Of a stretch of DNA of 64,000 bases, positions 1,443-61,826 are shown piece by piece. The notes beneath the pieces are model-generated. The model was not told the DNA's origin. It made no database searches and saw only the letters and a list, made by a program, of their open reading frames with translations. Each line of letters begins with the position of its first letter. Position 1 is the first letter of the stretch. Made by a program: the position numbers and the translations under genes. Source of the stretch: Cephalotus follicularis (lineage: Eukaryota > Streptophyta > Magnoliopsida > Oxalidales > Cephalotaceae); contig BDDD01002647.1 in NCBI GenBank assembly GCA_001972305.1, positions 195,213 through 259,212 of the forward strand, in the 5' to 3' direction.

Positions 1443-1522
1443 CAGTCGACTGTCACAGGGCAACAGTCGACTGGGCTGATTCATGGCATGGCAGTCGACT
1501 GTCCACATAAGGCAGTCGACTG
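1443..1522. repeat. GTCGAC palindrome array, dialect CAGTCGACTG (4 copies)
   Basis: Four perfect copies of the self-complementary 10-mer CAGTCGACTG start at 1443, 1464, 1492 and 1513, so the spacings are 21, 28 and 21 bp. The spacers differ in sequence. The solo LTR of the same family has the equivalent array at 16035-16113 with spacings 21, about 27 and 21. Confidence 0.9.
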
Positions 1523-2570
1523 GAAATTCGACAGACACAGGTGTCTGTGCATGGGTGAAACAGAAATGGGAGTGGCATGCAATGGGACAGGTGGCGTGGG
1601 CATGCACCAGCTGCCATGACATGCAGAGAGAACCCTTGCATGTGCTCTGCATCTTGCAGACCTGCCACCTGCAAATTTGAGAAGAGAAAAGAGTAAGAGA
1701 CAAGTGCATGTGAGAGAGAAGGAAATGTGGAAAAAGGGAGTTAAGAATCTGGCGAAATCAAAGAGCTTATATCAACTGTTGAGGTTGTATTATGAGTGTT
1801 AGAAACATTGTGAAAAAGAGGGAATTGCTGGAGAATTGAAGGAGCTTGCATAGAGAATTGGAAATTGCATGCTTGAAGTTGGAGACTCCAAGAGTGAGTG
1901 AACAAGAGACCTCAAGCTTGGGACCTTCCTGGTAAGTTCCAATCAGAATCTATGTTATGTGATGATGGTAACTAGAATGTTGTATACCTTCTGTCAAGCA
2001 TGATTAAGGTTAGCAATATTAGAATGATTGAAAGGGTATTATGGAAGTAAGAGCATGGAACATGAAGTTTAGAGGATTATATAATTTTAATTCAAAATGT
2101 AGCTGTTGGATAGTCACATTATGCCTACTGTGTCTCTTGGAGGTATATATTCATCCTCTGTCAACACATTAATCCGAAATTGAAATATGCTTGACATAGA
2201 TTTATAAAGAGAAAATGGTAATAGAAGCAAGGTCTATGGAATTGTGATAAACTGTTGTGTAGTATGTAATCATAGCTTAGTAAGCTAGCTAAACCTACTA
2301 GATAATGACTGAACATGATGCATGTACTACATAGATTAAACCTGCTGAGAATTGAAAGAATTGTTGGTGGAAGCTTGGAAAAGGCTTTGAAGCTTTAAAG
2401 AGAAAGATCACTCAATTGATCTTGGGATAGCAAATTGAGGTAGGGGTAGTGTTATGTTTTGGAAGATATGTTCATGCATTTCATGTATGTTAATTTCTCC
2501 TTGCATTGAACTGATTGGCATTGGGATTGCACTACACATAAACTATTCTGCCTGCATTTCTGGGCAAAAA

Positions 2571-2683
2571 CAGTCGACTGCCATTGAAAGCAGTCGACCA
2601 CTCAATTGATACAGTCGATTGGCAACACCCAGCAGTCGACTACTCAAACAAACAGCCGACTGGTTCTTGAGGGCAGTCGACTG
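2571..2683. repeat. GTCGAC palindrome array, dialect CAGTCGACTG (6 copies)
   Basis: Copies start at 2571, 2591, 2612, 2633, 2653 and 2674, so spacings are 20, 21, 21, 20 and 21 bp. Variants are CAGTCGATTG and CAGCCGACTG. The array is bracketed by TTTCTGGGC on the left (2560-2567) and TTCTGGGC on the right. Confidence 0.9.
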
Positions 2684-3325
2684 TTCTGGGCTGGAATTGC
2701 ATAATAATTGATTGAATTGCTACTGTTTTGCATTGCTATTGATTTGTATATGCTACCATCATATATTATGCACTGTTGATGTTATTTAACATCGTTACTA
2801 CTGATATTTCGCTGATCGAATGAAACTATGTGCTATATGCACAATTTATGGTTTTGAACACCATTTTCAAATGGAGAATTATTAATTACAAGAAGTACTG
2901 CTTTGATTAATGTTACTGAATATACTACTTATGTTAGTATATACCGTTTGGTGCTATTAACACCACTGCTACTGATAGTTTTAAAGATTGAAACCATTTA
3001 TGGGATTTGTACCAAAAAATTATGAAATTACTATCATTTTCAAAAGAACGCTTATTGTTAAAGAAGCTACTGATTTTTCCTCCTATACGAGAGGTACCTA
3101 CTGTTTTGTTTCTTCATACGGAAACCACTACTGTACCGATATCGTTTCCTCAAATGAGATGTACGATTACTGAACTGATATATGTTTCTAAAGAAAACAC
3201 TTGATATTGCATATTAATTATATATGTAATATTGCTATTGATTGTACCGATTGAATTGATTGTCTATGCTTACTGCCGTAGTTGAGTGATGGAGGATATC
3301 ACTGACTATGGATGTGATCCTGGGT

Positions 3326-3479
3326 GCCAGGAGTTGGCCAGAGTATCACCCCACTGTCTGCAATTGTAGAAATTACTGTTAAACTACCCGCCAACGCCGG
3401 TAGTAAATGACGCCTTTTCTACCATCCTCGGAGCGTAGGGTGATAGTTAGGTGGTGCACAGTCGGTGCTAGGAGTTAGC
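3326..3479 (+). repeat. paired GGAGT-loop mini-hairpins
   Basis: GCCA-GGAGT-TGGC at 3326-3338 and GCTA-GGAGT-TAGC at 3467-3479 have the same loop and different but complementary arms. Equivalent hairpins occur in the LTRs A', F, I and J. Confidence 0.6.
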
Positions 3480-3660
3480 GACATGTGACACCCAAACGAC
3501 TGACTGAATTGATTGTACCCTTGTGCGGTATTATTGCATATGAACTGTTTATGGCCTCTTGGCATGCTTGCTCTTATATTGGCCCAATTAAATGCTATTT
3601 TTGATATAACTGTCATACATGTTGCATTCATATATTCCTCTGCATACATTATCTTCCTAC

Positions 3661-3685
3661 TTAGCCAACTGAGGACAACGGCTAA
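3661..3685 (+). repeat. conserved TTAGCC/GGCTAA hairpin
   Basis: TTAGCC (3661-3666) and GGCTAA (3680-3685) form a 6-bp stem around a GAGGACAA-containing loop. The hairpin ends where the acceptor-like CCCCTAC...CAG begins. It is present in LTRs A, A', E, F, I and K. Confidence 0.7.
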
Positions 3686-4039
3686 CCCCTACAATTACAG
3701 ATTGAGCAAGGACGTTCGAAGCTTGCTGCTGAAGCTTTGGAAAGCTTCTGTTTTTCGTTTTAAGGTTGTTATATTTCTTATGATGGAATTGTATCGAGTA
3801 ATGAATGAACGAATCATACCTCGTTTTCTTGTTTTATTCCTTATGTTAAGGATACTATTTTTATCTTGTACCGCACGTAGTATGGGATGCGTGGGGATGG
3901 TTGTATTTTATATTCCGGCTTATTGACTGCTTCCGCATACTGTTATATTCTGTTTAATGAAATGCTGGAATGTATGTTTAATACTGATATCACCTTATAT
4001 GCTTGTCAATTGATGGTACTGAGATAACGGGGTGTGACA

Positions 4040-4894: not shown

Positions 4895-4908
4895 TTTCCA
4901 CCTCCCTT
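4895..4908 (-). other. polypurine tract of element B
   Basis: On the minus strand AAGGGAGGTGGAAA lies directly before the LTR start TGTAATACCCG. It is preceded by the TTTCGGGACAAAAT motif usual at plant gypsy 3' ends. Confidence 0.8.
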
Positions 4909-5039
4909 AATAGAATATTTTGTCCCGAAATCTAAAACATCTCCCAACCCGAAACGAACAACTAAGAAGGCACCTCAAAATTCCAAATGAAGACTCAGCT
5001 CCCACGGAAAGAGTTGGCCCAAAAACATACAAAGCAAAC

Positions 5040-5656
5040 TCCCTACGGTTACCAAAAGAAAGAAAGAACGAAACAATACCTGGAGCATCTGCAATCCGAT
5101 GAGTCGCAAACACATTGCCTCATTCACTCTGCTGCTTAGCATCTCCACCATTTCCTTTTCTATTCTTAGAACAAGGATTTGAACAATCCTTAAGGATATG
5201 ACCCATCTGACTTCATTTGAAACAAGCTCCCATAGCTCTATAACACGTTCCAACAGGATGCCACTTCCTACAAGTCTCACACTATGCAATAGGAATAAAA
5301 TTGGAATTATTCCCGTCAACCGATCCTCCACCATGGCCCCTATCCCGATGTCCCAAATTCTGATCCTGACAAGCATCCCTAGCCCGTTTCCTTCCTCTTT
5401 TTTGTCTGGCCTCTTGAACAACCAGGCTTTCCGCTTCAATATTTTTTGCCGTATTGTCCACATTCCTTTGCTGCTCCTGATCCAACTTCTGCTGTTGCAT
5501 TGCGCGAACCACTTGAGTTACCACTTGGGGAACAACTTGTGCAACCCCTAGCCTTACTAACTCCTCCAAAGTCAGCTAATTACGTACACCTTCTCATGAA
5601 ATAGCTGGCTCGACTTTCCGATTAACGTTCCTTGATCGTCCACCTCTTCATGCCAT
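5040..5656 (-). pseudogene. gag remnant of element B with double zinc knuckle
   Basis: The start matches the gag of element D at 63506: ATGGCA begins at 5656, but the third codon is TGA where D has CGT. MEELVRLGVAQVV follows, like MEELVRQAVAQEV in D. The capsid section is missing, and the sequence passes directly to a basic stretch (RQKRGRKR). Then comes a nucleocapsid region readable as CETCRKWHPVGTC and a second knuckle ending in MGHILKDC, with stops between them. A VFATHRIADAP motif like the gag-protease linker of chromoviruses follows. The remainder of pol is absent up to the polypurine tract. Gag normally forms the virus-like particle and packages RNA; this copy cannot. Confidence 0.75.
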
Positions 5657-5801
5657 CTACGAACAAGAACCAAAATATAACGAAACAAACAACAAACTAG
5701 TCAAGGGTAAACCAAAATGACAACTAAGGAATAACCCTAACCCAATCCCTACCCATCTCAGAGGTCAAACCTAGATAGGATTTCTAAGAAACGAAACCTA
5801 T

Positions 5802-5813
5802 TCTCTGATACCA
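5802..5813 (-). other. primer-binding site of element B
   Basis: The minus strand reads TGGTATCAGAGA, matching the 3' end of plant initiator Met-tRNA except for the last base. It is 3 nt from the LTR end at 5817. Confidence 0.8.
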
Positions 5814-6898
5814 TAATGTAACACCCCCGGTTCGGGATCAAGATGTCACCCCCGATTCAGAATCGGAAATGTCACGCTAAACCGGACTAATCGAAACATA
5901 TCAGCATATCCTAAACCTATGTCATTAAAAACAGTAATAAAGTCTGCAATTAAACTGATAAAAGAAAGAGTGTCAGATTCAAAACTTAAATGCTGCTCAT
6001 AAACAAATTGGTCTCCAAATTAACACGTGGTGGTCTAAACATAATCTGATAACACAACTAGAACTGGAAATCATAGTCCTGAAACACATAGCATTACTAA
6101 AGTATTTAACTCAATAAAATCCTCAAATCATAGGTTGCTCTCTTATCACACTTGCCCCCAAAGCTCCGGATAACTTGCCGCATGGAAACAAAAACACAGC
6201 TGAGCAAACCTCAGTACGGATATAGAAACATAAAACAGTAAGAAACAAAACCGATTACGAAATAGATCAATTCCCAAAATAATAATAGCTATGAGACGAA
6301 ACCAAATAAAACAGTTGCGAATCAAAACAAATACAAAACAGGACAGTGTCCGATACAAAAAAGTATTCAAAACTTCATAATACAAAATAAAACATTTTAC
6401 GAAACAAAACAAATTATGAAATAGTTTACGAAATGGAACAATACAAATCTTTTTAAAAACAGAACAATTCATAACTAAACCAGTTTATGCAATTCAAAAG
6501 ATGCTCATGTCAAATCATATATATGTAGATTCACAATTCAGCAAAAAGTGAAAGATATATATCAAAGCATATCAGTTTCCAAAACTTTTCTTAAATCCAT
6601 ATCTTATACTGAGAGATGCAATATCGAATTAAAAACATACATATATGCAAGGGATCCCGCAGAATCCACCTACAGAATCCACTTGCCAAACGGAATGACG
6701 TGTACGGCACTACCCAATCAATTCCCACAATCCATAACATATCACATAACATATAACTAGAGTCGACCCATACGCCTCTATCATACATAATAGATCCATA
6801 AATCCACCTCATGGGATTTATTTTTAACATTGAGAGACGCCGTAGACTAATCACACTGCTACGAAAGTGTCATGTCCCCGTGCCAGGCTTACGACATG

Positions 6899-6917
6899 CC
6901 TATGGTACCTCCATAGG
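6899..6917 (-). repeat. conserved CCTATGG/CCATAGG hairpin
   Basis: A 7-bp perfect inverted repeat with a 5-nt loop reads CCTATGGAGGTACCATAGG on the minus strand. It is followed by a conserved block containing TGGCACGGGGACATGACAC. The block is also present in LTRs C, L and D. Confidence 0.75.
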
Positions 6918-7942
6918 TAGGAAATAATATATTCTCAGTATTTCAAAAATAATGATTTATCAAAATCATTTCAAAATATTGGTTTACTCACAAACCCAAA
7001 TCATATCTTCAAAATTTGCATACTTTCGTAATTGAAAATCATGCTCATAACAAAATCTGTATCATAAAATTTTAACATACTTTCATAGGTGAAAATCATG
7101 CTCAATTTATAAAATCAGTAATATTCAATTGTACACCAAAAAGTGATAGAAAAGATTTTATCATGTCGAAACATATCCACCAAAACGAAAAATCCTTGCA
7201 AAAAACATATATGAATTAATTTAATTCAAATCATAGGATAAGACCCAAAAATGAAGAAATTCGGACATTTTAAAAATCAGAAATCAAGAAAAGAAAATTC
7301 GTAACAAAGTTGGAATCATTTTCATAAATATCGAAGGAATAAACCAAAAACGAGAAACCCGTACATTTTCACATTTAGGAACGAACTCATTTAATTTTCA
7401 TAACAAAAGAGGTGTTCGTATAGAATTTTTCGTAAACGAATCATAACACAATTTTTATAAGGTCTGGAATATTAAATTTCAAAAATATTAGAGTTGGATT
7501 TATTTTCAAAATTCGTAAAAATAAAGGAACCTCAAAAATCCGTACATCTTTCATTGAAAGGAAGACTAAATTTTATTCTCCAACAAAAATCAATAAGAGG
7601 GTATCAAAAAGAGAATTATCCGTACTTAGATTAAAAATCTTAATTTTTTTCCAAATAAAATCAGGAGAAAAATCATAGAAGCATAAAATGATATACTTAA
7701 TAAACAAAAGGAGTATACCAGAGCACGATGTATCCGTACTTTTTTCACAAAAATATAAAACTGAATTTATTTATATGAAACCGAACGAGATATCCAAGCA
7801 CGAAGAATCCGTACCTTACGTAATCTCCAAAATTATCCTAAAGAGAAAATAAAATAAACCCTATGCAGCACTTCCGTCGATACAGTTATCTAAAAGATGT
7901 AAAAACAACAATTCAAATCAGAAATTAGAAATCCTTGTAAAA

Positions 7943-8184
7943 GCGTCAGCGCTTTGTCTAGAACAAAGCCGAAAGCGTCGACTCTTTCTAGCATAAGCGT
8001 CAATGTTTATCAGGACACAGGTGTCGTTTAAACATTTTATTAACTCAAACTTTGAGGACAGAGCGTCGATGCTTTACAGAAACAAACCAAGATGGCGTCG
8101 ACGGTTTACAGAACAAGCAGGATTATGCGTGATCAAGGAAAGGCGTCGACGCTTTGATGAAACAAAGGGGTAAGGCGTCGACGC
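7943..8184. repeat. GTCGAC palindrome array, dialect GCGTCGACGC (element B LTR)
   Basis: About eight GCGTCRRYGC-type motifs lie between 7943 and 8184. Perfect copies include GCGTCGACGC at 8175-8184 and a similar one about 28 bp earlier. Others are degenerate (GCGTCAGCGC, GCGTCAATG). Spacing is less regular than in the CAGTCGACTG arrays. Confidence 0.8.
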
Positions 8185-8219
8185 TTTACATGAGTTTTGA
8201 GGAAGATGTCTGGTTTGAC

Positions 8220-8680
8220 AGCCCATAACACAATGCTGTACACACAACTCTAACCCAGTACCCACGGCATGCACAACACACACACCACATCCATAACACA
8301 TACTCTGCCTACACGCTACCAATCACACAGACTCATATAACTCTGCACCCTGTACACACAGACACTTACTAAATGCAAAACACACACAGCACACAACACA
8401 AGCACACACTACCTACAACACATACACACATGCCTACACAACACACATACACATACTACATGCAAAACACACACAGCATGCACCGCACACACACTGTCTA
8501 CACACCACATGCAAAACTTCTTAGACTCATACTCGACACTCCCCTCAACACACACTGCTCACATACATAACACATACAACATGAAAATCACACCCAACAT
8601 GCACAAAACACATGGATAACATATACTCTATTTTCACAACACATACAAACAACCAACACACATGCACATGCAGGACAATC
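8220..8680. repeat. CA/TG-rich low-complexity tract
   Basis: This stretch is dominated by ACACA words on the plus strand (TG-rich on the element's sense strand), with recurring CATGCAAAACACAC words. It lies beside the palindrome array in the B LTR. The reading frames through it are compositional. Confidence 0.8.
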
Positions 8681-9719
8681 CTAGTGCTGCGCATGAACCC
8701 ATGTGATAAATTTATGGGCAACAGTGGTGTCAACACAACCAATTAAACCAATCCCTTACATGACGCTGATGGAAACAACCAGAAATGCAGAAAAATAGGG
8801 GAGAACGCAGGCATATGCAAACGGTGGCTGTGTTAAGGAGAGGGATGGGATCAATCCCTACACATGTGACCGAGTTGATATCCAACCCGACCATGACCCA
8901 TGCGAGACACCATGACTGCTAAAAAATAAGAAATGAAAGGTGCTGGATTACGGGGAGAAGAGGATTAACACATGCATATCTATATACAGTTTATATCAAA
9001 TGAATCGGATCACCATAATGAACAAGAAACCGAACGTGAAGTGATGTAGGACTGTGGCGGTAGAGCAAGAAGCTTTCCTCTAAGCTGTAACAATGGCGCT
9101 TCCAAGAGAGAGAGAGAGAGGCTGTCCAGCGGGTGAGAGAGAGACGAATGAAGGAGAAAAAAAAAAGATAGAAGGGGGCCAAATTATTAAGGCCAAAACG
9201 TTTAAGGAAAAAAAAGAAAAGAGTAATGCATGGGAAAGATTTTCGACAGAGGGCGCATAAGTGAGAGGGCAAAACGTGGGAGAGAGAGGTAAAGAGAGAG
9301 TGTTGACGTGGGAGAGAGTGAGTGAGAGATTGGGAGAGAAACCATTTTGGGAAGGGAGAGATTGAGGGAGAGAGGGTGGCGGCATAAAAGGGGAAAAACA
9401 AAGGAATAATAAACCATTTCCTTTTCAAATTGATTTTGCATAATTTGGTTTTTAAAACAAAAGTGACCATTTCCTTTTTAAATTGGTATTTTAGTTTTCT
9501 AAAAGAGAAAATGATAAATGTATTTAAAATAAAAATATTTTCTTTAACCATTTACTAAAGATGTTCATTGGTCAAAATTCGAAATTAAATTAGCCCAAAC
9601 AAACGAAAATTTTGGGTAATTCATATCTAAAACAAATAGGCAACCCACAAAAATAAAATTAAAAAGGGGTCCAAATAAAATAGAATAAAATAAATTTTAA
9701 ACGAAAAAACGGGTATTAC

Positions 9720-10314
9720 ATGCAATGCAAGTATGAGAAGATGGAAACCTTATCCTCTATACTACTCCATCTCGACGAAATGTATGGGGCTGGGTCTAGG
9801 ACTCGGAGGCTTAATCTCTCGTGCAAACTCTTTAAGGCCCATGTGCTAGAGGGAGCTTCAATCCATGATCATGGACTTGAGATGATAGACATGATTGAGC
9901 AGCTTCCTCAATTAGGTTTTGTCATGGATCACGATATTTATATAGATCTTATCCTTGCATCCCTCCCTGGTTCGTTCTCACAGTTTGTGGAGTATTTTCA
10001 CTTGGTTGAGATATAAGTAACTATTACTAAGTTAGTTTCTATGCTGAGGACGGCATAGACTAATCTTGACTCTGAGAAGTCAAAGATCCTAGCCCAAGTG
10101 GGTAAGCTTGGAGCTACTAGGGATATTGCCAAGAATCGTTTGAAGCAGCTGGTGGCTGAGGGTGCCTGCTTCCAGTGTGGCAAGGATTGTTGAGTTACTG
10201 GTGCTGGAGTCTCTTCTCATGCTTCGCATGGTGCGAGCACATCATGTATGTTCATGATTGAAATTAACGTAGCTTTGAATAATAGTTCTTCATGGGTATT
10301 GAATACTGGATATG
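9720..10314 (+). pseudogene. Ty1/copia element 1 gag remnant, interrupted on both sides
   Basis: The translated text fits a plant copia gag: LHLDEMYGAGSRTRR, then MIDMIEQLPQLGFVMDHD and a zinc-knuckle start CFQCGKDC, with stops in frame (for example after FHLVEI near 10014). It runs into SSWVLNTGY, the protease active-site region (DTG in intact copies, here NTG). Protease is cut at 10314 by solo LTR A' and resumes at 16289. On the left it abuts the LTR of element B, which disrupts the gag. Confidence 0.85.
10310..10314. repeat. TSD ATATG (left) of solo LTR A'
   Basis: ATATG at 10310-10314 is repeated at 16284-16288 on the other side of the insertion. Removing the insert and one copy restores continuity of the copia 1 reading around the protease motif. 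Confidence 0.9.
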
Positions 10315-10891
10315 TGCCACACCCCGTTTTTCCCAACTTACATCGGACAAGCATATATGGTGATATCAGAATAAGCATAAAAATATTCCAGCATTCCAAT
10401 TAACAATTCATAAATAAATTTGCGGAAGCAATCAGTAAGCCGAAATATAAATGCAAGTCATCCGCACGCATCCCATACTACGTGCAGGCATAATTGTAAC
10501 ACCCTCCGAATGGCGGGAGTCGTCACGGTTCCTAATCCAAGACTAAACATAACATATCTTATAACATGACTCAATTTTATTCTCTTTATCAGATTATTAA
10601 CTCATCTTTTATTCGAATTGCGTGATGGTCTAAACATAACAATATATAATCTAATAAATAATCTGAAAACTTTATTCATAATCTAAAACTTAAACATAGT
10701 CTGGAAGGCTAAACAAAAACCAAAAGCTTAAACATAATTCTAAGTCATAAACTGAAAGGCATAACATAGTTCAAATAGTGGTTCTAACATGACCAAAAAT
10801 AACTAAGCATAAACGGTTCCATCTCCTAAGTGGTCGTTATCATAGGTGACATCTCGCTCATCACACATTGCCTGGATGCTGTCCCAGAATA

Positions 10892-10935
10892 CCTGCCGCA
10901 TGGAAACAAAAATGCGGCTGAGCAAACCTCAGTAT
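10892..10935 (-). repeat. GCCGCA/TGCGGC hairpin block of group-2 LTRs
   Basis: On the minus strand CTGAGGTTTGCTCAG is itself a 5-bp hairpin. It is followed by GCCGCA, a T-rich loop, then TGCGGCAGG. The block is recognisable in B, G, L and D with wobble or compensating changes in the stem. Confidence 0.7.
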
Positions 10936-11340
10936 GGATATAGAATCATAAAACATAAAGCGATAATTTAAAAGATAGAAAATACCTGAATTTTCATATA
11001 CCTAAAGCATAAAATAATTTAACATATTTTCGAAAAGAACGAAGGTGAGTAGTCATACAATCAATTCAAAACGAATATCAAATTTTGAAAGCGTTATTCA
11101 ATTTTAAAACATAAACCAAGTTCAAAACAGTTATCCAAATCAAACGTTCAAATTACTTTAACGACAGCCAATTAAAGTTTTCAAAATAAAAACTTATCCG
11201 ATTCCAAAATCTCATCATAGAGATCCAAACATATAACAGAGACTTATCCGATTCCGAAATCTCATTACTGAGATCCAAAGCGCATACACATATGCGAAGT
11301 TGCAAGGGGTTTGCAAGGCCCACATGCCAAACAGAAAGAC

Positions 11341-11356
11341 GTGTACGGCACTACAC
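11341..11356 (-). repeat. GTGTA/TACAC hairpin (LTR C)
   Basis: The minus strand reads GTGTAGTGCCGTACAC, a 5-bp perfect stem. The matching place in LTR G has GTATA/TATAC instead, a paired change. Confidence 0.7.
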
Positions 11357-12414
11357 AATCAATCCCCAAAATCCATATCCTTAACAGATCAAATACTAGA
11401 GTTTACCCATACGCCTCTATCAAAAAATCGGATCCATAAATTCACCTCATGGGATTTATTCAAAACATAGAGAGACGCCGTAGTCGAATCACACTGCTAC
11501 GGAAGTGTCACGTCCCCGTGCCAGGCCCACGACGTGCCTATGGTACCTCCATAGGTAGGAAATATCTCTGTGTATATCTTTATTTTAAAAACATTGTTTT
11601 ATTTCTAAAAACAATTTTAAAAATGTAAACATCCGTTTTTCTAAACATTTTCTAGACATAGCAAAATCATTACATAATATCAACCAATTTATTTTCCACT
11701 GTAAAGAGATGATGAATTCATATTATATCGTGACGTATCTTAGCATAAAAATGTAGTTAGGAATATTTAATTTCATAAAATGTCAACAATCAATTAATTT
11801 ATGAAGCATATCATAAAACGTATTCAAGTCTATAAAATGAGATCGTAGATTAAAACTGATTTTAGTTTGATAAACAAATAGCCAAGGAAGGATATAAATC
11901 CGTACATTATTTATAAAGTAAAACAGGATAGTTTCAATAAAATTGGATAGCCAAAGAGCAGAAAATCTGTACGTTATTCATAAAGTAGAACTATATTTTT
12001 ACCATAATAAAAACAGTAGGAGGGTATCAAGGAACGAAACATCTGTACGTTATTCATAAAAATATAAAACTGAATTTATTCAGATAAAACCGAAGGAGAT
12101 ATCGAAGAACGAAAAATCCGTACGTTATTCATAAAGTAAAACTAACATTTTTACTCTAAAAAAATCAATAGGAGCGCCAAAGAAAGAATGATCCGTACCT
12201 TAAGCGATCACAAAAATAACTTTACGAATTGATCAACAATTTAAAAGTCCCTCGAAGCACAAAAATCTAAAAGATATAATATCATTCATATAAGGATTCA
12301 ACAATCACTTCCAAACATCAAACAACAATTTAACAGTGTTTAAAACCGACTCCAAATCATTAGACGAACAAACGGATTACAAAACTTGAAACTAGAAAAT
12401 TCACTGGACAAAGC

Positions 12415-12579
12415 CAGTCGGCTGTATCAAGATCCAGTCGACTACTTAAAGGTGGTAGTCGGCTATGTGGCATACGCAGCCGACTACTCAAACTGGGTAT
12501 GAATCCAGTCGGTTGTTCAATGGGTGGCAGTCGACTATGCAAGGCAAAACAGTCGGCTGTCTCATGAGGCAGTCGACTG
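12415..12579. repeat. GTCGAC palindrome array, dialect CAGTCGACTG (8 copies, LTR C)
   Basis: Copies start at 12415, 12435, 12456, 12477, 12506, 12528, 12550 and 12570 (spacings 20, 21, 21, 29, 22, 22, 20). About half are half-site variants (CAGTCGGCTG or CAGCCGACTA). The array ends in GACTGTTCTGGGC, the same boundary as in LTR A. Confidence 0.9.
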
Positions 12580-16888: not shown

Positions 16889-16960
16889 GGTTCATGATTG
16901 TCAACTGGTTTTGTCCTCTTTTATTGATTTATAATTTGTAAAACGAATTTGGTTCATGAT

Positions 16961-48790: not shown

Positions 48791-48792
48791 CT

Positions 48793-50492: not shown

Positions 50493-50830
50493 GACGTCGA
50501 CTTCTTTTATATAACATCGACGCTATTATGTAATACATTGTCGTTTTGAGGTTCCAGACCCTAAGACATCGACTTCTTTATAATGACATCGACGTCTTTT
50601 ACGTTTTATCTCGTTACTGACTGAGAGGGATCGACGTCTTTAGGAAGACATCGACACCCTAGGCCGTTTACCTGGTTTCTGTTGAAAAAGGCATCGACGC
50701 CTTTTAGTTAGACATCGACGACATTTCATGATACGCTGTCGTTTGGGGTTCCTTCTGTAGAAGAACATGGGGCCTGGACTTCGATGCATGACTCGAAGAC
50801 ATCGACGTCTTTGGGAAAGACGTCGACGTC
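50493..50830. repeat. GTCGAC palindrome array, dialect GACRTCGACGYC (J 5' LTR, downstream)
   Basis: Runs from GACGTCGACTTC at 50493 to the dimer GACATCGACGTC at 50798 and GACGTCGACGTC at 50819 (21 bp). Confidence 0.85.
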
Positions 50831-50994
50831 TTTGCTACTGTTTGGAGATTTCTTCATCGGATGACACGGAACGATCCCAATTTCTATTAGGGTGCACTCG
50901 AGCATATGTATGCATTGCATATGTACTGTTTACTGCCTGATTGTGTACTGTTTGTGTATTGTTTATGATTTCAAAAGTGTTGATGCTTTAGAAA

Positions 50995-51173
50995 CTGTGC
51001 AAGATGATCTATCTTGTGAGGAGTTGCCTGTGCAGATTCTCGATCGGAAGACGCAGACTTTGAGGAACCGAACCATTGCCATGGTCAAGGTTCAATGGCA
51101 GTTTCACAAACCCGATGAGGCAACTTGGGAGCGTGAGGAGGACATCCGAGAGCGCTACCCGCACTTGTTTTAG
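50995..51173 (+). pseudogene. pol tail of element J (chromodomain end)
   Basis: In frame it reads LSCEELPVQILDRKTQTLRN, then TIAMVKVQW and DEATWEREEDIRERYPHLF to a TAG. This is the same chromodomain-like tail as in element A. Upstream the frame runs without a stop into 5' LTR sequence, giving an accidental LTR-pol fusion frame from 50892. All catalytic domains are absent. Confidence 0.88.
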
Positions 51174-51204
51174 TATTGTGTTAATTTCGAGGGCGAAATT
51201 TCTT

Positions 51205-51218
51205 GAAGGAGGGGTGGA
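51205..51218 (+). other. polypurine tract of element J
   Basis: GAAGGAGGGGTGGA precedes TGTAACGCCCGG at 51219. Confidence 0.85.
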
Positions 51219-51390
51219 TGTAACGCCCGGTATTTTCCTGAATGTAATATTTTGATTTACGATGTAATCATTGAACTTGATTTAATAAGAATGTTGAGTT
51301 TTAACCTCAAAGATGCTTCCAAACCCTAGTTATGGACTTAAGATGGAGCGTGTATGTTAAAAGTTTGAAACGGCACTGTTTTAGCCAAAA

Positions 51391-51540
51391 GACATCGACG
51401 TCTTTTGGAAAGACGTTGACTCCTTTGTGACCTAGGGCACATGTGAATGCATGGGCATGCACGTCGACTCGGGAAGGAGGCATCGACACCTTCTTACGAA
51501 TGGACAAAGACATCGACGTCCGAGGAAAGACGTCGATGCC
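51391..51540. repeat. GTCGAC palindrome array, dialect GACRTCGACGYC (J 3' LTR, upstream)
   Basis: Sister of 49596-49745. The second copy has become GACGTTGAC (51412), a CpG-to-TpG change absent from the other LTR. Confidence 0.85.
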
Positions 51541-52040
51541 TTTGTATGAATGGCCGCACGTTCTTCGTCTGCAGAGGTAGCATGCACGGGATTTGTTTAG
51601 GGGCTTACCTAACGCCTTTTGTGAGTGCTCTGTGGCGTGTTGTGCATGTGGGGGTGTTGCCAGAACATGCCTCACATGGCTCGTGAAAGGGGAATCCTCA
51701 CCTGCTACCTGCAATGTAAAGAATGGTTAAAGAATGAAAAGGAAATGCAGAAAAGAGAGTAGGTGGGAGAGAGCATGTGTAGGGCTGTTAAATGCCAAGA
51801 GGATATGTCGGGGGAGAGACTTCTGCATAAAGGACACCCTCCCCACTTGTCTCTCTCGTTTTACAATACCAGAAGAGAGAGAGAGAGTGAGATAGTGACT
51901 GTGTGTATTCCACCATTGTTGAAGCTTGGAGCTTGGGCCTTGAAGCTACTGGTGCAGCTACGGGACGGACTTGAGGGGCTGTTGTGACTTCGTGGAATAC
52001 GAAAAGGGGTGGACTTTCGGTTTCTAACTTGAAACCAGAG

Positions 52041-53428
52041 GTAGGGGAAAGCCATACTGTAAATTCCAGCTTAATATTCATGCATGGTTTATGAATTCTG
52101 AATGTATAAAAATGCATGATTCTTGGATTGATACTGTTACTAGATTGATGCTATGAGATGCTAGATGTGTTTTTAGTATCTACATGTTGGTTTCTTGCTA
52201 TGAAAACCCGTTGTTATGCATGATTGTGGGTGGTTATGGCCACTGTTCGATGAGTCGTGAGGTAGAAGACGACCACTGTTGGAAATGACGTCGACTTCTT
52301 TTATATAACATCGACGCTATTATGTAATACAATGTCGTTTTGAGGTTCCAGACCCTAAGACATCGACTTCTTTATAATGACATCGACGTCTTTTACGTTT
52401 TATCTCGTTACTGACTGAGAGGGATCGACGTCTTTAGGAAGACATAGACACCCTAGGCCGTTTACCTGGTTTCTGTTGAAAAAGGCATCGACGCCTTTTA
52501 GTTAGACATCGACGACATTTCATGATACGATGTCGTTTGGGGTTCCTTCTGTAGAAGAACATGGGGCCTGGACTTCGATGCATGACTCGAAGACATCGAC
52601 GTCTTTGGGAAAGACGTCGACGTCTTTGCTACTGTTTGGAGATTTCTTCATCGGATGACACAGAACGATCCCAATTTCTATTAGGGTGAACTCGAGCATA
52701 TGTATGCATTGCATATGTACTGTTTACTACCTGATTGTGTACTGTTTGTGTATTGTTTATGATTTCAAAAGTGTTGATGCTTTAGAAATGCACAAATGAG
52801 TTTGGAATGAGATGTTTTGAGTATGAAAATATGTGTTGATCAATTAACGTATTTTCAACCGAAAGATTTATACTACTGAAACTGTTACTGATATTTTCTA
52901 CTGAAAATACTTATTTTCAAATGTTGTCAATTTTGGAAACATTTTGGAAAATAACTGCCTATTATTGATCAAGTCGATCATCACTGATTACTGTACTGTT
53001 ACTGTTTAAATGCACTGTTTGCTCTGTGAATTGATTGTGATTGTGTTTGAGCTGCTAGTTGCGTGGCGGAGGTTGCCAATGATGACTAGTGGTAAGGGCG
53101 GGCCTAGGGACCTGGAGTATGGCTAGGTGTCCCACTGTACTGATGCCTCACCCGATTGCCCGATGTGGGGATCGTCGTGGGAGTGTAGCGTGGGGCCAAG
53201 AATTGGCGACGCTACAAACTGTTGTTGTAGTCCTATGTGGACATCCTGACTGTTGTGGTCCTATGCGGACATACTGTACTGTACTGTTTACTGGTCCTTT
53301 ACGGACATTACTGTGATTGTTGACGTAGCCCTGGCCGGGTTACTACTGCATTGTTACTGTACACATATATTTTATATATGTAACACTGATATTTTACTGT
53401 ACTAAAGGCTAACCCCCTACTGTAACAG
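52041..53428 (+). other. candidate LTR intron-like module of J (3' LTR)
   Basis: CCAGAG|GTAGGGG at 52041 and GGCTAACCCCCTACTGTAACAG ending 53428, length 1388 bp. Here the left arm of the usual TTAGCC/GGCTAA hairpin is deleted while the acceptor-like part is kept. The equivalent donor in the truncated 5' LTR is at 50247. Confidence 0.4.
52287..52624. repeat. GTCGAC palindrome array, dialect GACRTCGACGYC (J 3' LTR, downstream)
   Basis: Sister of 50493-50830. The last dimer is at 52592 and 52613, 21 bp apart. Confidence 0.85.
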
Positions 53429-53792
53429 ATTGATGGAGTGGTCTCGACATGGAGCAAGCACGGAGATTTAAAGAGAAGACTTGTTATTTTCTCTTATTTT
53501 GGGTTGTTGAACATTTATCATGTTATTTGGTTTTGTAACATTGGATATTTGTTATCTTGTACCGTTTTGTTCACGCTCCGTTTTATGGGCGATTGACTTG
53601 TATGATCTGTATTTGGGTAGCGTACGGTATGGGACGTACGTTACGTATTGACAGCTTATGTTCTTTTATGCTTCCGCAACTCTTATGCTTGGAAAAGTTT
53701 TGAATTTTACGGTTTTCACATGAGCTGTATTTATGTTAATTGCCTTTACCGCTTTAACGCTGCATTTTTTGTAAACGGGGTGTGACAACCAC

Positions 53793-54315: not shown

Positions 54316-54368
<53 letters not shown>

Positions 54369-54735: not shown

Positions 54736-54741
54736 CCATTA

Positions 54742-55211
54742 ACTGTAGCTACTAAGCTCTGTTGAGTAAGTAGCTAGGGTTTCCCATGCAATGGTTACTA
54801 AGCTCTGTTGAGTAAGTAGCCAGGGACTCCCTTTTGGGTTACTAAGCTCTGTTGAGTAAGTAGCCAGGGACTCCCTTTTGGGTTACTAAGCTCTGTTGAG
54901 TAAGTAACCAGGAACTCCACTGCTAAGCTCTGTTGAGTAAGTAGCCGGAGATTCCATATACTGTAGCTACTAAGCTCTGTTGAGTAAGTAGCTAGAGTTT
55001 CCCATACAATGGTTACTAAGCTCTGTTGAGTAAGTAGCCAGGGAACCCGTTTTGGGTTGCTAAGCACTGTTGTGTAAGCAACTTGAATTGTATTGTTTGT
55101 CCGATGTGACTGATTGACTGTTGTGCCGGTTACTAAACGCAGAGCGGAAGTAGCCGGGTTGCTAAACACAGAGTGGAAGTGACCGGGTGCTAAACACGGA
55201 GTGGAGGCATC
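54742..55211 (+). repeat. tandem hairpin array (K partial LTR)
   Basis: About eight units, about 44-50 bp each, of the form CTACTAAG-CTC-TGTT-GAG-TAAGTAG. Then come a GTTGCTAAGCACTGTTGTGT unit and GGTTACTAAACGCAGAGCGG-type units. The arms pair in each. Confidence 0.85.
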
Positions 55212-55529
55212 CCCGCATAGAGTGTTGTCCGTGGTGACATGATTGATTGAAAGTATTGGTTTGTTTGTCCATTGTGACATGTTTTACTGGATTGTGGGCC
55301 CGTTGAGGCATAACCGATGTATTGTCTGATCCTGTGAGGACATAATTATGACTGGTCCGCTGAGGACATGACCGTGATTGTGTTGATGTAGCCCTGACGG
55401 GTTGCACCTGTACTGTGGATATGTATATATAGATACATATATGTATCAACTGTTATATATATACCGTACTGCATCACTGTGCATTCATACATGACATGCA
55501 TTACCATTGAAACCGAACTGTATTTATAC

Positions 55530-55570
55530 TTAGCCGAGTGAGGACAATGGCTAACCCCCTACAGTTTCAG
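55530..55570 (+). repeat. TTAGCC/GGCTAA hairpin and acceptor-like site (K partial LTR)
   Basis: TTAGCC 55530-55535 pairs with GGCTAA 55549-55554. CCCCCTACAGTTTCAG follows, then ATTGATTTCAG|GTTGATG. Confidence 0.65.
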
Positions 55571-56582
55571 ATTGATTTCAGGTTGATGCAGCGGATTGTA
55601 CTATTGAGCTCCGTGGAGCGAATGGAGTTTTATGTTGTTTTACTTTTGAGAAATGTTAATGGATCATTGTAATAAATGAATCGATGTATTGATATATATT
55701 GTTCACGCTCCGTTTGAGGGCAGTTAACTTTGATGATGTTTATTGTTGTAGCATGTAGTATGGGATGCATGTTACGTTATAATTCGGCTTATATTTAAAT
55801 GCTTCCGCAAGATGTTAATGGTTATGGAAAGTTTTAAATTTATGGTAATTTGCATAAGCCGGGTTTATATGTTGATTGCCACCACTATATATGTTGTTAT
55901 GGGTAACGCCCCGAATTTCATAAATAATTATTATGAAACTGGTGCGTGTACAGTTGTGACAAAATCGATGGAGCCCGGAGTATTAAAAAGGCATTACGCA
56001 TTTAAGTCGTAATCGTGTTAGCTAAGAAGGCTAATAAAATCTATTTTTAATGCGTGACAATAAAGCCCAAATGTTCGCATTTTTATTGCGATTATTTTGG
56101 TGGTTGTTTGGATAATTTATGTCGCGATTTGCGGAAAAATCAGGACCCGTACCTTAGTATTTTACCAGAAAATACTAAAGAGAAAGCAAAATAACAAAAC
56201 AATAAAGGAAGGAAGAAGGGGAAACACGGGCGCATAGCGCGCCCGTGCGTGTTACCTGCAGGGAGAGAGAGACAGGGAGAGAGTGCAAGAGAGATTGGGA
56301 GAGAGATCAGAGCAGAGCGAGTGAGAGCGCGCCGGAGCTACCCACCGGACCAGGGGAGGACGGCGAGCAACCCAGGCCCACAACCCGCCGGTAAGCCCTT
56401 CCCCCTCCTCCTCTTTTCTCTTCTTTTTCCTTTGTTCCCCGCCACTGCCGCGCCTCCTCCCGGCGTTTCCCGGCGTCGTTAGCGTCGAGGGTGGGGTGGG
56501 TTTTCATCTAGAGGACCTGCTCTTCCCATTTTGACCCCCGGTGAGGCGTGATTCCGCCCGAAACGGCCGGAATCAGTTGAAT

Positions 56583-56605
56583 GAGTCGACTCAGCGAGTC
56601 GACTC
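56583..56605. repeat. GAGTCGACTC palindrome pair (K)
   Basis: Perfect copies at 56583 and 56596, 13 bp apart, the same step as in E at 31829 and 31842. Confidence 0.8.
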
Positions 56606-57294
56606 ACTGTCGCCTTGGACCGCGCGTTTAGCGCCGAGTCTTGGCGAGTCATGGGCATGGGTGTGTATAACTGGTGGATATGTGACGTTTTTGGGTGGTG
56701 ATCGGACCTGTGGAGGTCCGGTGAGTTGACTCAGTGAGTCACGACTCACTGCTGGCTGTGGCGCGGCGTTCGGCACCAATTCCCGGCGAGTCTTGACCGG
56801 TTTTGTGTAGACCGTTCAATGTGGAACCCATTGATGGGTGTTTCGTAAGCTGGTTGTGTCGGTCGGATTCCGGTCGGCGTTTCGGCGACGGAAATGTTTT
56901 GTGTGTCGAACGTAACAGAAATGTGTTGTATGTGTAGTGTGCAAGCGGCAATTGGATTTGGCAGTGAGGAACTGATCAATTGGCAAGAACCGGCTTCGGT
57001 TCAACGATTATCAAAAAGGTTCGACAATTGAACCTGCGGCTCGACTGTGCTGCTGTAACAGGTAGGGGAAGCTATACATGCAAGTTTGAGTTCAATAATA
57101 TTGTAATGCCATTGATGAAATGCATGATTTGCGAATTGTGAATTGTGTGACTGTGTTAGGGTTGCTATATGAATAGTTAACCTGTCCTGTATATTGTGTT
57201 TTACGATGATTGCGAATTGAATGACATGTGTTGTGTGCTTTGAACTCTTTTGGTTTCGAGGCGTGTTGAGGGAACCGTGTTTTGGTTCTCTTAA

Positions 57295-57586
57295 CCGTCG
57301 ACGCTTAAGAAAGAAGCATCGACGTTATGGATTGTTATACGGGGAATGAGTCCTGATTTGCGATAAACGTCGACACTTACATAAAACGTCGACGCCATGA
57401 TTTGTTGTATGTGAGAATGGACACGTGTGTCGTTGACGCCTGAGGTTCCTACCTCAGAGCATCGACGCCAAAGGGATGAGACGTTGACGCGTAAAGTTCT
57501 GGTTGAAAGCATTGACACTAAGAGTTAAGCGGCGACGCTTAAGTGACTGAGTTGAACATTAACGCCTATATGGTGCATGTTGACGC
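57295..57586. repeat. GTCGAC palindrome array, dialect GCGTCGACGC (K)
   Basis: CCGTCGACGC at 57295 through ATGTTGACGC at 57577-57586, about ten motifs, several with changes in the central CpG (GTTGAC, ATTGAC). Confidence 0.8.
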
Positions 57587-57865
57587 GAATAGAGCCCGTT
57601 TGCATTATTGAGCATATGTTTGCATTGCATACAATTGTTGATTGAGCTATCACATGTTTTCTAAAATGTTCTTCATTTTAGAAGTGTATAAATGGTTTAT
57701 CAAATCATTGTTATATGGAAATGTATTGTTTTCGAGTATTTTACTATACCTTGAAACTACTTGAAAATGATTGTAAATGGATTGTTATATATATTGAGCA
57801 AATATATATGTTTTTCAAGTGTTTATATTTATAAATTACTTGGAATGGAATGAGAAACTTGTGAT

Positions 57866-58500
57866 GACTACTAAGCCCTGTTGGGTAAGTAGCCAAGACT
57901 GTGAAATGTTTTATGGCAATGCATTGTTTACAAGTATTATATTTGTTAATAATTACTTGTAATGGATGGATTGATTGTATTTGGCTGCTAAGCTCTGTTG
58001 AGTAAGTAGTCAGGAACTCCACTACTAAGCTCTGTTGAGTAAGTAGCCGGAGATTCCATAAACTGTAGCTACTAAGCTCTGTTGAGTATGTAGCTAGGGT
58101 TTACCATGCAATGGTTACTAAGCTCTGTTGAGTAAGTAGCCAGGGACTCCCTTTTGGGTTACTAAGCTCTGTTGAGTAAGTAACCAGGAACTCCACTGCT
58201 AAGCTCTGTTGAGTAAGTAGCCGGAGATTCCATATACTGTAGCTACTAAGCTCTGTTGAGTAAGTAGCTAGAGTTTCCCATACAATGGTTACTAAGCTCT
58301 GTTGAGTAAGTAGCCAGGGAACCCGTTTTGGGTTGCTAAGCACTGTTGTGTAAGCAACTTGAATTGTATTGTTTGTCCGATGTGACTGATTGACTGTTGT
58401 GCCGGTTACTAAACGCAGAGCGGAAGTAGCCGGGTTGCTAAACACAGAGTGGAAGTGACCGGGTGCTAAACACAGAGTGGAAGCATCCCCGCATAGAGTG
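57866..58500 (+). repeat. tandem hairpin array (K complete LTR)
   Basis: Same unit types as 54742-55211, with more CTC-TGTT-GAG units, followed by one CAC-TGTT-GTG unit (near 58337) and three AGA-loop units (58405-58485). Confidence 0.85.
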
Positions 58501-59194
58501 TTGTCCGTGGTGACATGATTGATTGACCGTATTGGTTTGTTTGTCCGTTGTGACATGTTTTACTGGATTGTGGGCCCGTTGAGGCATAACCGATGTATTG
58601 TCTAGTCCTTTGAGGACATAATTATGACTGGTCCGCTGAGGACATGACCGTGATTGTGTTGATGTAGCCCTAACGGGTTGCACCTGCACTATGGATATGT
58701 ATATATAGATACATATATGTATATACTGTTATATATATACCGTACTGCATCACTGTGCATTCATACATGACATGCATTATCATTGAAACCAAACTGTATT
58801 TATACTTAGCCGAGAGAGGACAAAGGCTAACCCCCTACAGTTTCAGATTGATTTCAGGTTGATGCAGCGGATTGTTACTGTTGAGCTCCGTGGAGCGAAT
58901 GGAGTTTTATGTTGTTTTACTTTTGAGAAATGTTAATGGATCATTGTAATAAATGAATCAATGTATTGATGTATATTGTTCACGCTCCGTTTGTGGGCAG
59001 TTAACTTTGATGATGTTTATTGTTGTAGCATGTAGTATGGGATGCATGTTACGTTATAATTCGGCTTATATTTAAATGCTTCCGCAAGATGTTAATGGTT
59101 ATGGAAAGTTTTAAATTTATGGTAATTTGCATAAGCCGGGTTTATATGTTGATTGCCACCACTATATATGTTGTTATGGGAACGGGGTGTAACA

Positions 59195-59965
59195 TCTAGT
59201 CACCCCCCGGATTCGTGTATTACCACGTCTATCAATCAGGGACCGAATAGCCAGTCGCTTTGTCCAGTCATCAACATATTTGTAGTGTTTCCCTCATCAT
59301 ACGTAGCTCCGATCAACTGTCTAGGGTTTGGATGAATGTCACCCCTAGATTTATTCTAAATATCTATGATCGCACTGAGACTATGACAGACCTCCCATGG
59401 AAACTACCCCGTCTCCGGTCCGTCTATAACTTAATCAGGATTTTAAGTCTGCAACGTACATAGATAAATAGAGCTAGTCACGCTCTGCCAGGGTGTGATG
59501 ATCCCCTGTTGCGCACTCGCTCATACATCTCAATGCAGCTTCCACAAGACCCAAAGACAACCTTTTTGCCAGCACGTGGCTAGTGCTGGGAAGGCGGAAA
59601 TCAAAGTCAAGCGGTCCCCACACAATGCATGCTAGCCGCTTAGGTCAAAGGAACATCGTAGGCGTGGACCTACTAGTCACCATAGACTATACACTACCGT
59701 GACCATAGGAACCCCTATTGACATGGGTATAGACTATCCAAATAGGGATCCTATTGGTAGGTCTGTTCAGCATCATGCAACCGTGCACGCACGCCATATT
59801 AGCTTTAGGATAAACACCGAATGGTCCATGAGATGATCAATCCTCCCTCCTTGGGAGCAAGCGTAATGTGGCAAGTCTTTATCACGGTTCTACAATGGCC
59901 CAAAGATTGTGAACCTATGACTTAGAACAAGTTTAGTCACAGGGAATAAGGATCTCAATCTCATT
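59195..59965 (-). mobile_element. 5' LTR of element H, segment 3 (outer end deleted)
   Basis: Matches 40975-41748 of the sister LTR and stops at AATCTCAT, about 220 bp before the LTR end. Confidence 0.85.
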
Positions 59966-60243
59966 TATGGTATTTTACCAGAAAATATTAAGGTCCGGGT
60001 CCCATTTTTCCGCGAATCGTGACGTTTATTAATCAGATTGCAACTAAAATAACCGTAATAATAATTCGAATATTGGGCTTTACTGTCGCGCATTAAAAAT
60101 AGGCTTTAATAGCCATTTTGGGCAACATAATTATGGCTTAAATGCGAAATGCCCTTTTATCACTCTAGGCCTCTATCGGTTTTATTAAGATCGTACACGC
60201 ACCAATTTCATACTAATTATTTATGAAATTCTGGGGCGTTACA
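59966..60243 (-). mobile_element. 5' LTR of element E, terminal part
   Basis: Matches about 32232-32509. It ends GGGGCGTTACA and is followed by TSD ACACT (60244-60248). Confidence 0.9.
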
Positions 60244-60248
60244 ACACT

Positions 60249-60471
60249 GAACTGGACCCACGTAGGAGACACTATTTGGATAGTTGTTATTCTCGTGTCA
60301 GTAGTGACTCCTATTTGTTGCGGTTGTGTATAAGTGTTAATCACTTAGCGAGTTCACAAACTCGTCTGATCCTTAGGCCTTAGAGACTGCTCTATATTGT
60401 ATGGAGACAGTTATGCTTTGATCTCCACCTTACCCAGTCCTTGCACAGGGCTAGCAATCGGGTGGTCTTTG
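60249..60471 (+). mobile_element. 3' LTR of copia element 2, second segment
   Basis: Continues the LTR from 26816 (GAACTGGACCC..., compare 19446 onward). It is interrupted at 60471 by element D; CTTTG (60467-60471) is the likely TSD, with its partner beyond the window. Confidence 0.9.
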
Positions 60472-61620
60472 TGTAATACCCCGCTAGTTCGTATGTGTGT
60501 TTACGGACTTTTTATGTGGTTGTGTTCGGGATTTTTAATTGTGTTTAATTTTAAAGTCCGGTTGCCCTATGTTTTGGACTTATGTGATTTGGGCTGACTG
60601 ATACCAGTCCAATTTTGGGTATGTTATGCTATGTTGGGTTTGGAGTTTTTATTTTATTTAATCAAAATTTTTTTTAATAAAACAATTCATTTCTATTTTT
60701 AAAATCCTTTTTAATCCATTTTAACTTATTTATTTTCTTTTAATTTATTTTCTTTTTCTTTCCTTTTTCCTTTTCTTTCTTCTTTCTTCTCTTCTTTCCT
60801 ATTTCCTTCTCCTTTCTCTCGAAGCCCTCCCTCTCCCTCATTAATTTTACTCGTTTGTAATCTTGTTTTCCTTTTCTAATCCCCTGAAATCCTCCCTCCT
60901 TCCCTTTAAAACAGATTTTTTGTCCCCTTTTTCCTTTTGTGAGTGCCATTACCGTTTTATATGTTGCCTTCATCTTTCTTGCAAGCCACTGCTGAATCCT
61001 GCCAGCGAGTCTGTGTAATCTGTTGTGCAATTGTTTCCTTAAGTCTGAATAGGTAATCTTAATCCTTTTGTTGTTCTTTGAGTTGAATTCAATTGGTTTG
61101 CTAAGTATGTCTTTGTATTGGTTTTTCTTTGGCCCCTGTTTTGTTTATAGCCGATTGTGATTTCGTGCTAGTGTTCCTTCTACTATTTTTCTGTGTTCTC
61201 TATACCATTACAGGTCAGTTAATTCATTCCTTTTTGTAATGGTTTTGCCGCAATGTTGTAATTTGAGTTTTATGCTCTTAATGTCCTTTGGTTTCGATCT
61301 CCTGTATAATTATATGTTCTGTCATGGCATTAGTAGGTTGTTAGCATGTTTTGTGCACCATGACTTGTCACAAACTGGTTTTATAACATCTGTAAATGAT
61401 TATGGACTGAGTCTGGACATATGAGCATGCATATCTTTTTGTCTTCTCCTTAAACTAAACCACTATCCAATTGTTTCTATGTCGATTATGTGTTTTTATG
61501 TCACATAAATGCCATACTATGTCATATAATTATGTCCATGTGTCTCTGGTTTAGTGTAGAGATCATTTGAACCACTTTCTGCATGAAATCGTCTAGTTCC
61601 TACTGTTCTGTCGTCGAGAA

Positions 61621-61826
61621 CAGTCGGTTGTTCCTGTGGACAGTCGGCTGGATTGGATGAACAGTCGACTGCCATATGAACATAGTCGACTGTCTTAGGT
61701 TGAGTAGTCGACTGGACCTATGAACCAGTCGACTGTCTGCATTCTGGTTTGAGTAGTCGACTGGACCTTATGAATAGTCGACTGCCAAGCTTCCCCAGTC
61801 GGCTGGTGCTCTGTAATAGTCGACTG
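61621..61826. repeat. GTCGAC palindrome array, dialect CAGTCGACTG (10 copies, LTR D)
   Basis: Starts are 61621, 61641, 61662, 61683, 61705, 61726, 61754, 61775, 61796 and 61817, with spacings 20, 21, 21, 22, 21, 28, 21, 21, 21. It ends GACTGTTTTGCCCAGAAATG. This is the most regular array in the window. Confidence 0.92.

Follow-up and report, generated by a model that had tools for sequence, protein, structure and literature searches.

GTCGAC palindrome arrays in Ty1/copia and Ty3/gypsy long terminal repeats of Cephalotus follicularis as candidate sites for a dimeric DNA-binding protein family

Arrays of a short palindrome with the core GTCGAC run through the long terminal repeats (LTRs) of a nested pile of retrotransposons in the 1.58-Gb genome of Cephalotus follicularis. 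The whole stretch analysed, called the window here, is 64 kb long (G000:C2647:195213-259212). The closest described counterparts are the palindromic repeated-motif (RM) boxes of Sirevirus LTRs (Bousios et al. 2010). That paper gives 13 motifs, with CGGTCGACCG of Vitis and ACAATCGATTGT of Tnd-1 among them, and places 117 of 127 copies in the upper LTR half (PMC2829016). It describes them as Sirevirus-specific and absent from classic copia elements, with a CGG-CCG core in most, clusters that define CpG islands and a conserved TATA box soon after the cluster, and it names no single binding factor (PMC2829016). Their carriers are recognised by the polypurine tract (PPT) AGGGGGAG, present in multiple copies, and by the junction CA/ATTGG (PMC2829016).

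VANDAL elements also have short motifs arrayed in non-coding DNA that differ between related families and evolve together. They differ in being Mutator-like DNA transposons with an element-encoded VANC protein and, for VANC21, a one-orientation motif that is dense only in its own family (PMC5735166, PMC10398659). The REM-GDE1-CLSY3/4 system involves multimer arrays, a strict spacing requirement and host B3-family proteins, and its sites are direct TTTTGCTTAT repeats with 1-nt gaps at few loci (PMC12270911). The arrays described here are instead palindromes about 21 bp apart. Tnt1 boxes and the 21-bp repeats of HTLV-1 are U3 activator sites to which host factors bind, short, repeated and in part palindromic; unlike the GTCGAC arrays, each is confined to one element family. 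Tnt1 box I is mentioned in the Sirevirus paper (PMC2829016).

The window contains 76 copies of GTCGAC where 6.1 are expected, a 12-fold excess, and the highest count in 100 shuffles was 12. It is the most enriched 6-mer palindrome there, with GACGTC next. Sixteen LTR models were delimited using self-comparison, LTR ends, primer-binding sites (PBSs), PPTs and target site duplications (TSDs). The LTRs counted for GTCGAC cover 41,982 bases, a list that stands apart from the 5' LTR of copia element E4 and some LTR fragments. Sixty-nine of the 76 sites lie in delimited LTRs and four in the internal leader of the Ty1/copia element E1; the other three are at 25060, 34177 and 53892, the last being a single lone site within the E4 5' LTR. 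At least one GTCGAC is present in 14 of the 16 models. The two negative LTRs, solo LTR M (35495-37127, minus strand, TSD GTGAC) and the E4 3' LTR (39422-41749, minus), had no comparable enrichment of an 8-mer palindrome either when ten LTRs were scored. An earlier note on this DNA had described such arrays in several LTR families and one leader, and these counts bear it out on a larger scale than it had described.

The genome-wide scan that the earlier note had called for found AGTCGACT 339,984 times, compared with 23,357 times for its reversed form as control. Pairs of GTCGAC at distances of 10-40 bp (4-34 bp between them) numbered 224,538, compared with 3,925. A random genome sample of 18 stretches and 175,345 bases (20 were chosen, two of which fell on contigs that were too short) held 106 GTCGAC sites against 16.9 expected. 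A related core lay within 60 bp of 88 of these 106 sites but of only 22% of random positions. Seven control palindromes were placed near such cores at rates of 26/34 for GACGTC, which belongs to one of the flank dialects described below, 17/48 for ATCGAT, and from 2/31 to 7/24 for the remaining five. By blastn, 37 of the 106 sites fell in DNA resembling the window LTRs and 69 in DNA not similar to them. The low figure of 37 suggests that GTCGAC is also present in other families or in more diverged ones, judging from a sample in which LTRs are not delimited. Pfam scans of ten sample open reading frames (ORFs; one per stretch, from ten of the 18 stretches) matched nine, five of copia type (L025, L026, L029, L037, L042) and four of gypsy type (L031, L035, L036, L038). 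In the gypsy element L031, an open frame of 1206 aa is accompanied by two LTRs with CA/TG-flanked sites in each; the alignable parts of these LTRs are 97% identical.

Host and coding DNA were poor in the motif. No array was found in 32 kb around host genes, which speaks against the refuting case named in the earlier note, arrays equally common outside transposons: eight Ras/Rab-gene stretches, hand-picked from 89 Ras-family matches, contained one GTCGAC and no neighbours at 19-22 bp, whereas the sample had densities per 10 kb of 6.05 for GTCGAC and 5.30 for 19-22 bp neighbours (Poisson 8e-8). A gypsy coding stretch selected as array-poor (L043) had no GTCGAC in 10 kb, and ORFs of at least 150 aa, which make up 19% of the sample bases, held three of the 106 sites. 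Related copies are not independent in the statistics given here.

Individual units take the forms aaCAGTCGACTG, AAGCGTCGACGC(ctt), AAAGAC-RTCGAC-GTCTTT and TGAGTCGACTCA, with RTCGAC and GYCGAC as core variants and a palindrome of about 10-18 bp in all. The discriminating bases are the next two positions on either side of the core, which read CA/TG, GC/GC, AC/GT or GA/TC, with outer A/T in several families. The three flank dialects given in the earlier note are real. To these we add a fourth, GAGTCGACTC, in which the TGAGTCGACTCA unit makes a 13-bp pair (GA/TC) in the 3' LTR of element E2 (31831-31849, minus) and in LTR E5 (56585-56603, plus). Of 103 labelled sites in the window, 89 had the majority dialect of their own LTR, against a permuted maximum of 65; this count and that of 64 spacings given below leave out the redundant 5' LTRs of E3 and E2. 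In the random sample a dialect could be assigned to 56 of the 106 sites; neighbouring sites agreed in dialect in 17 of 17 labelled pairs (7.1 expected), and the flank dinucleotides (n=212) included GC 65 times, CA 50, AC 22 and CG 3. Dialects are not random, contrary to the other refuting case in the earlier note, and its idea of flanks tuned to families gains support from these counts.

The CA/TG dialect is found in LTR A (1266-4039, plus), the 3' LTR of a Ty3/gypsy element, which has TG..CA ends, a PPT before 1266 and the integrase C-terminal domain SH3_Tf2-1 encoded at 488-1219. Its array 1 (1445-1532) has spacings of 21, 28, 21 and 12, and its six-unit array 2 (2573-2681) spacings of 20, 21, 21, 20 and 21. 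LTR A' (10315-16283, minus), a relative of A by self-comparison and LTR similarity, has CA/TG arrays at 16037-16118 (array 1) and 14865-14974 (array 2; spacings 20, 22, 20, 21, 21). It is split by solo LTR C (10495-13699, minus, TSD ATAAT), in which eight CA/TG units lie at 12417-12577. The same dialect occurs in solo LTR E7 (28197-30679, plus, TSD ACAAA), with arrays at 28363-28509 and, in ten units, 29313-29524, and in LTR L (60472-63335, plus, PBS at 63341), where the array at 61613-61824 is spaced mostly at 20-22 bp.

GC/GC units make up the array at 7977-8182 (spacings 32, 48, 32 and one further site) in LTR B (5817-9720, minus), a 5' LTR defined by its ends and a PBS at 5802-5813, with a 0.9-kb interior and no superfamily assigned. 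They predominate in the seven-unit array at 20340-20508 in the second half of the E1 5' LTR (19044-21283, plus, PBS at 21285) and form the E1 leader array at 21598-21675 (plus; spacings 21, 32, 19). GC/GC arrays are also present as array 2 (30942-31183) of the E2 3' LTR (26817-32509, minus), which is interrupted by E7 and belongs to an element with TSD ACACT, and at 57297-57488 in LTR E5 (55903-59194, plus, ends approximate). The arrays of the E2 5' LTR (38411-39306, minus) are partly decayed, and the truncated LTR D (16884-19043, plus) has both CA-like and GC types at 16962-17267. The AC/GT dialect characterises solo LTR E6 (43339-45351, plus), inserted in copia E4, at 43516-43608 and 43844-44029, and the gypsy-like element E3 (49424-53787, plus), which consists of a truncated 5' LTR, an integrase tail and a 3' LTR from 51219, at 49599-49742, 50496-50827, 51394-51537 and 52290-52621.

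The carriers were called unrelated in the earlier note, which does not apply to all of the LTRs: A/A', E2/E5, E3/E6, B/D and C/L align at 62-85% identity (A-A' 71%, E2-E5 71%, E3-E6 85%). Its assignment of carriers to gypsy likewise needs qualification. Window proteins comprise the gypsy integrase end next to A and the copia domains of E1 and E4, and protein matches to Hibiscus, Theobroma and others point to a plant origin of the DNA. Gypsy assignment by coding sequence holds for A and, outside the window, L031; E3 is gypsy-like by the reading frame of its integrase tail, and only LTR ends or LTR similarity place B, C, D, L, M, E2, E5, E6 and E7 with gypsy. Array-wide contrasts, such as GC/GC in B and CA/TG in C and L, resemble the differences between related families seen with VANC targets; they could reflect tuning to paralogues or whichever unit founded the array.

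Spacing is the second regularity. In the window, degenerate cores with a neighbour no more than 60 bp away gave 91 spacings, of which 35 were exactly 21 bp and 51 were 20-22 bp (a count without the E3 5' LTR, the E2 5' LTR and the E5 duplicate, as are the window word counts given at the end). For the dialect-labelled, non-redundant sites of the window LTRs and leader the figure at 20-22 bp was 38/64. Copia E1 alone had 5/11 spacings in that range and 2/11 at 31-32 bp, while E2 and E5 together had just 1/6. Of the first 100 genomic pairs listed, all 10-40 bp apart, from one contig (C1) and with same-family copies included, 48 were at 21 bp and 76 at 20-22 bp; in the random sample, pairs within 70 bp gave 16/42 at 20-22 bp and 9/42 at 41-44 bp. 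A distance of 20-22 bp is about two helical turns and so places neighbouring sites on one face of the helix. Spacers do vary in sequence, as the earlier note said, but the spacing is not free. The arrays also recur at similar LTR positions, in many cases near 170-320 (500-700 in some) and near 1070-1660, and the first LTR half, which is probably U3, holds 50 of 60 GTCGAC sites in the 14 untruncated models but none of four in copia E1.

Conservation was examined in three related pairs (A-A', E2-E5 and E3-E6) out of 19 LTR pairs compared, with B-D and C-L added later. In the three pairs GTCGAC was kept at 12/16 sites compared with 63/213 for other CpG hexamers (p=4e-4; reverse direction, 12/16 and 61/224). 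With both directions summed, A-A' kept 12/15 against 30/81 and E2-E5 8/10 against 50/243. Per-base identity over the three pairs was 0.72-0.90 in the core, 0.85 in the two bases preceding it and 0.45-0.73 elsewhere, and in array 2 of A and A' the motifs stand as islands amid poorly matching spacers. Across whole arrays, identity exceeded that of the rest of the LTR in E2-E5 (0.813 and 0.703). Where constraint is seen in these alignments, it falls on the motif rather than on the whole array.

Compared with the Sirevirus boxes, the arrays share the clustering of high-copy palindromes in long LTRs and the family-specific variants; the Vitis box CGGTCGACCG contains GTCGAC, and Tnd-1 ACAATCGATTGT has an RTCGAY core with CA/TG flanks (PMC2829016). 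They differ in lying in gypsy LTRs and in a copia element that fails the Sirevirus PPT test, and in their spacing near 21 bp. The CGG-CCG signature is also missing, with no CG/CG flank against 2.3 expected (cores with at most one mismatch, window LTRs and E1 leader). E1 is not a Sirevirus by the features of that group: AGTGGGAG occurs once, in the linker, no AGGGGGAG is present in the interior, and the junction is CA/GTGG. Since E1 lacks the PPT and junction features and A is gypsy, this is a known kind of motif with a wider range than the Sirevirus paper described; the arrays extend RM boxes to gypsy elements and add a spacing rule. The earlier note had missed both the spacing preference and this precedent, which is much closer than VANC. 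In the literature searched, at the level of titles and the start of abstracts and with most subscription papers outside it, no paper was found that describes gypsy LTRs with GTCGAC arrays. A search for GTCGAC with LTR retrotransposons and palindrome returned none, and no retrotransposon title was among the matches listed for the palindrome words themselves.

On balance we lean slightly towards reading the arrays as binding-site clusters for a host family of dimeric DNA-binding proteins that would control LTR transcription in gypsy and non-Sirevirus copia elements. Each unit would be bound by a homodimer, or by one of several related dimers, which would read the common core together with the family-specific two-base discriminator. 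The arrays would act as cis-regulatory clusters, most of them in the first LTR half but those of copia E1 in the second half and the leader, and neighbours 20-22 bp apart on one helix face could bind cooperatively and raise transcription from the LTR. Cooperative sites for a dimeric protein, of which the earlier note had suggested the dimeric binding, are indicated by the two-fold palindrome, the two-turn spacing, the retention of the motif over the spacers in several LTR pairs and the scarcity in host genes and coding DNA. Outside the core, flank offsets 1, 3, 4 and 5 show more palindromy in the random sample than column composition would give. Cores common to both superfamilies make a family of host factors more likely than a protein encoded by the elements, and conservation across element divergence favours a benefit to the element.

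Several results weigh against this reading. Flank offset 2, which is part of the dialect, had no palindromy above column composition in the sample. Site retention was not significant in E3-E6 (4/7 compared with 44/113 with both directions summed, p=0.28), B-D kept 0/2 (reverse 0/4, D being truncated) and C-L 1/3 (reverse 1/5), so that the arrays there do not correspond site by site. Adding the last two pairs weakened the test, though still in favour of retention, to 13/21 against 81/309 over five non-redundant pairs (p=0.001; reverse 13/25 against 81/325, p=0.005). Distant pairs keep few sites or none (A-E7 2/8, E7-E3 0/6), and whole arrays were less identical than the rest of the LTR in A-A' (0.687 and 0.716) and E3-E6 (0.783 and 0.860). 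The two LTRs of E2 itself, 91% identical, have 2/5 sites in common, as would be expected if sites decay once an element has inserted. In some LTRs imperfect cores lean one way, with seven GCCGAC and no GTCGGC in E7 and two GTCGGC and no GCCGAC in L, and the regular spacing may in part go back to duplication of a 21-bp unit. TATA-like words follow the arrays at no constant distance in ten LTRs.

A bolder extension, which we consider rather unlikely, is that one dimeric protein family reads an NN-GTCGAC-NN dialect code at two-turn spacing across Ty1/copia and Ty3/gypsy, with families changing the dialect of whole arrays so as to acquire or evade a regulator in a genome-scale arms race over several hundred thousand sites. 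If the main reading is right, a large share of the LTR retrotransposons of the genome would be linked across superfamilies, in their transcription or silencing, by one regulatory word. With array DNA as an easy bait, it would become directly testable which host protein governs these elements and whether families change their flanks to gain or avoid it.

Anti-silencing is an improbable alternative, in which a transposon-encoded or captured protein would bind the arrays and lift silencing as VANC does on VANDAL elements, the dialects being matched pairs of protein and target. The uniformity of arrays within families and their differences among related ones agree with what is reported for VANC targets (PMC5735166, PMC10398659). 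The comparison, offered in the earlier note, is not supported by the motif: the VANC21 sequence YAGTATTAY is arrayed in one orientation and is dense in its own family only, whereas the present motif is a palindrome with a core common to copia E1 and gypsy A (PMC5735166). The window has 42 ORFs that reach 110 aa, and the 20 of them that were scanned gave retrotransposon domains or nothing, in a search not aimed at a VANC-like gene. Array DNA translated against protein databases had no relatives.

We hold it equally improbable that a sequence-specific host protein draws RNA-directed DNA methylation, or repression of another kind, to the arrays in the way that REM-GDE1 brings in CLSY3/4-Pol IV. 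Sequence-guided methylation in which repeated motifs and their exact spacing matter is known in plants, although the REM motif is a direct TTTTGCTTAT repeat with 1-nt gaps and no palindrome (PMC12270911). The spread over superfamilies fits a host-run system, but retention of sites between some diverging families would be odd if they were purely harmful to the element.

Slightly less probable again is a neutral origin, by which a palindrome-bearing 21-bp unit was duplicated in ancestral LTRs and the copies are now merely diverging. Some arrays can still be read as tandem repeats of period 20-21, and both the one-way lean of imperfect cores and the failure of B-D and C-L to keep individual sites agree with this. 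Against it, spacers have diverged more than cores in the three pooled pairs, and copia E1 and gypsy A have the same core and spacing with no LTR match listed between them in the self-comparison. Duplication alone leaves unexplained the same core in both superfamilies and in DNA unlike the window LTRs (the 69 of 106 sample sites above). A role of the self-complementary words in dimerisation or packaging of genomic RNA is very improbable: packaging signals lie in the leader after the PBS, where the E1 array sits, but the concentration of sites in the first LTR half, probably U3, and spacings of about 21 bp that point to double-stranded DNA speak against it.

An integration-target explanation was rejected, since the four identified TSDs lie outside the arrays and plant LTR elements prefer palindromes only weakly (PMC6911290). 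Scans of viral contigs for dialect pairs returned 2 and 14 stretches; with the first two inspected, all are taken to be viral or bacterial DNA without relation to the arrays. When viral contigs were scanned for gypsy integrase, none was confirmed.

Other sequence features were recorded alongside the arrays. CATGCA, an RY-type word, is also enriched, with 95 occurrences against 36.8 expected in the window and 223 against 99.6 in the sample (L025-L042). RY-type words are bound by B3-domain factors. GA-rich tracts are repeated in the LTRs, for example at 1679-1824, 28641-28738 and 13145-13246, and GAGAGA occurs 142 times against 22.4 expected. One sample stretch, L033 (G000:C3666:30001-40000), consists of satellite DNA repeated in tandem at offsets of about 163 bp; its CpG observed/expected ratio is 2.26, compared with 0.57-0.95 in the other 17 stretches. 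Element B as a whole (4895-9720) combines a 3.9-kb 5' LTR with only about 0.9 kb from PBS to PPT and no Pfam domain in the two ORFs tested, and is therefore likely to be non-autonomous. In both E3 (49424-53787) and E5 (54736-59194) a full LTR is paired with a partial copy, which suggests deletion or unequal recombination. Within the E5 LTR copies, a 44-46 bp tandem repeat (TACTAAGCTCTGTTGAGTAAGTAGCC...) occupies 54750-55078 and 57988-58358.

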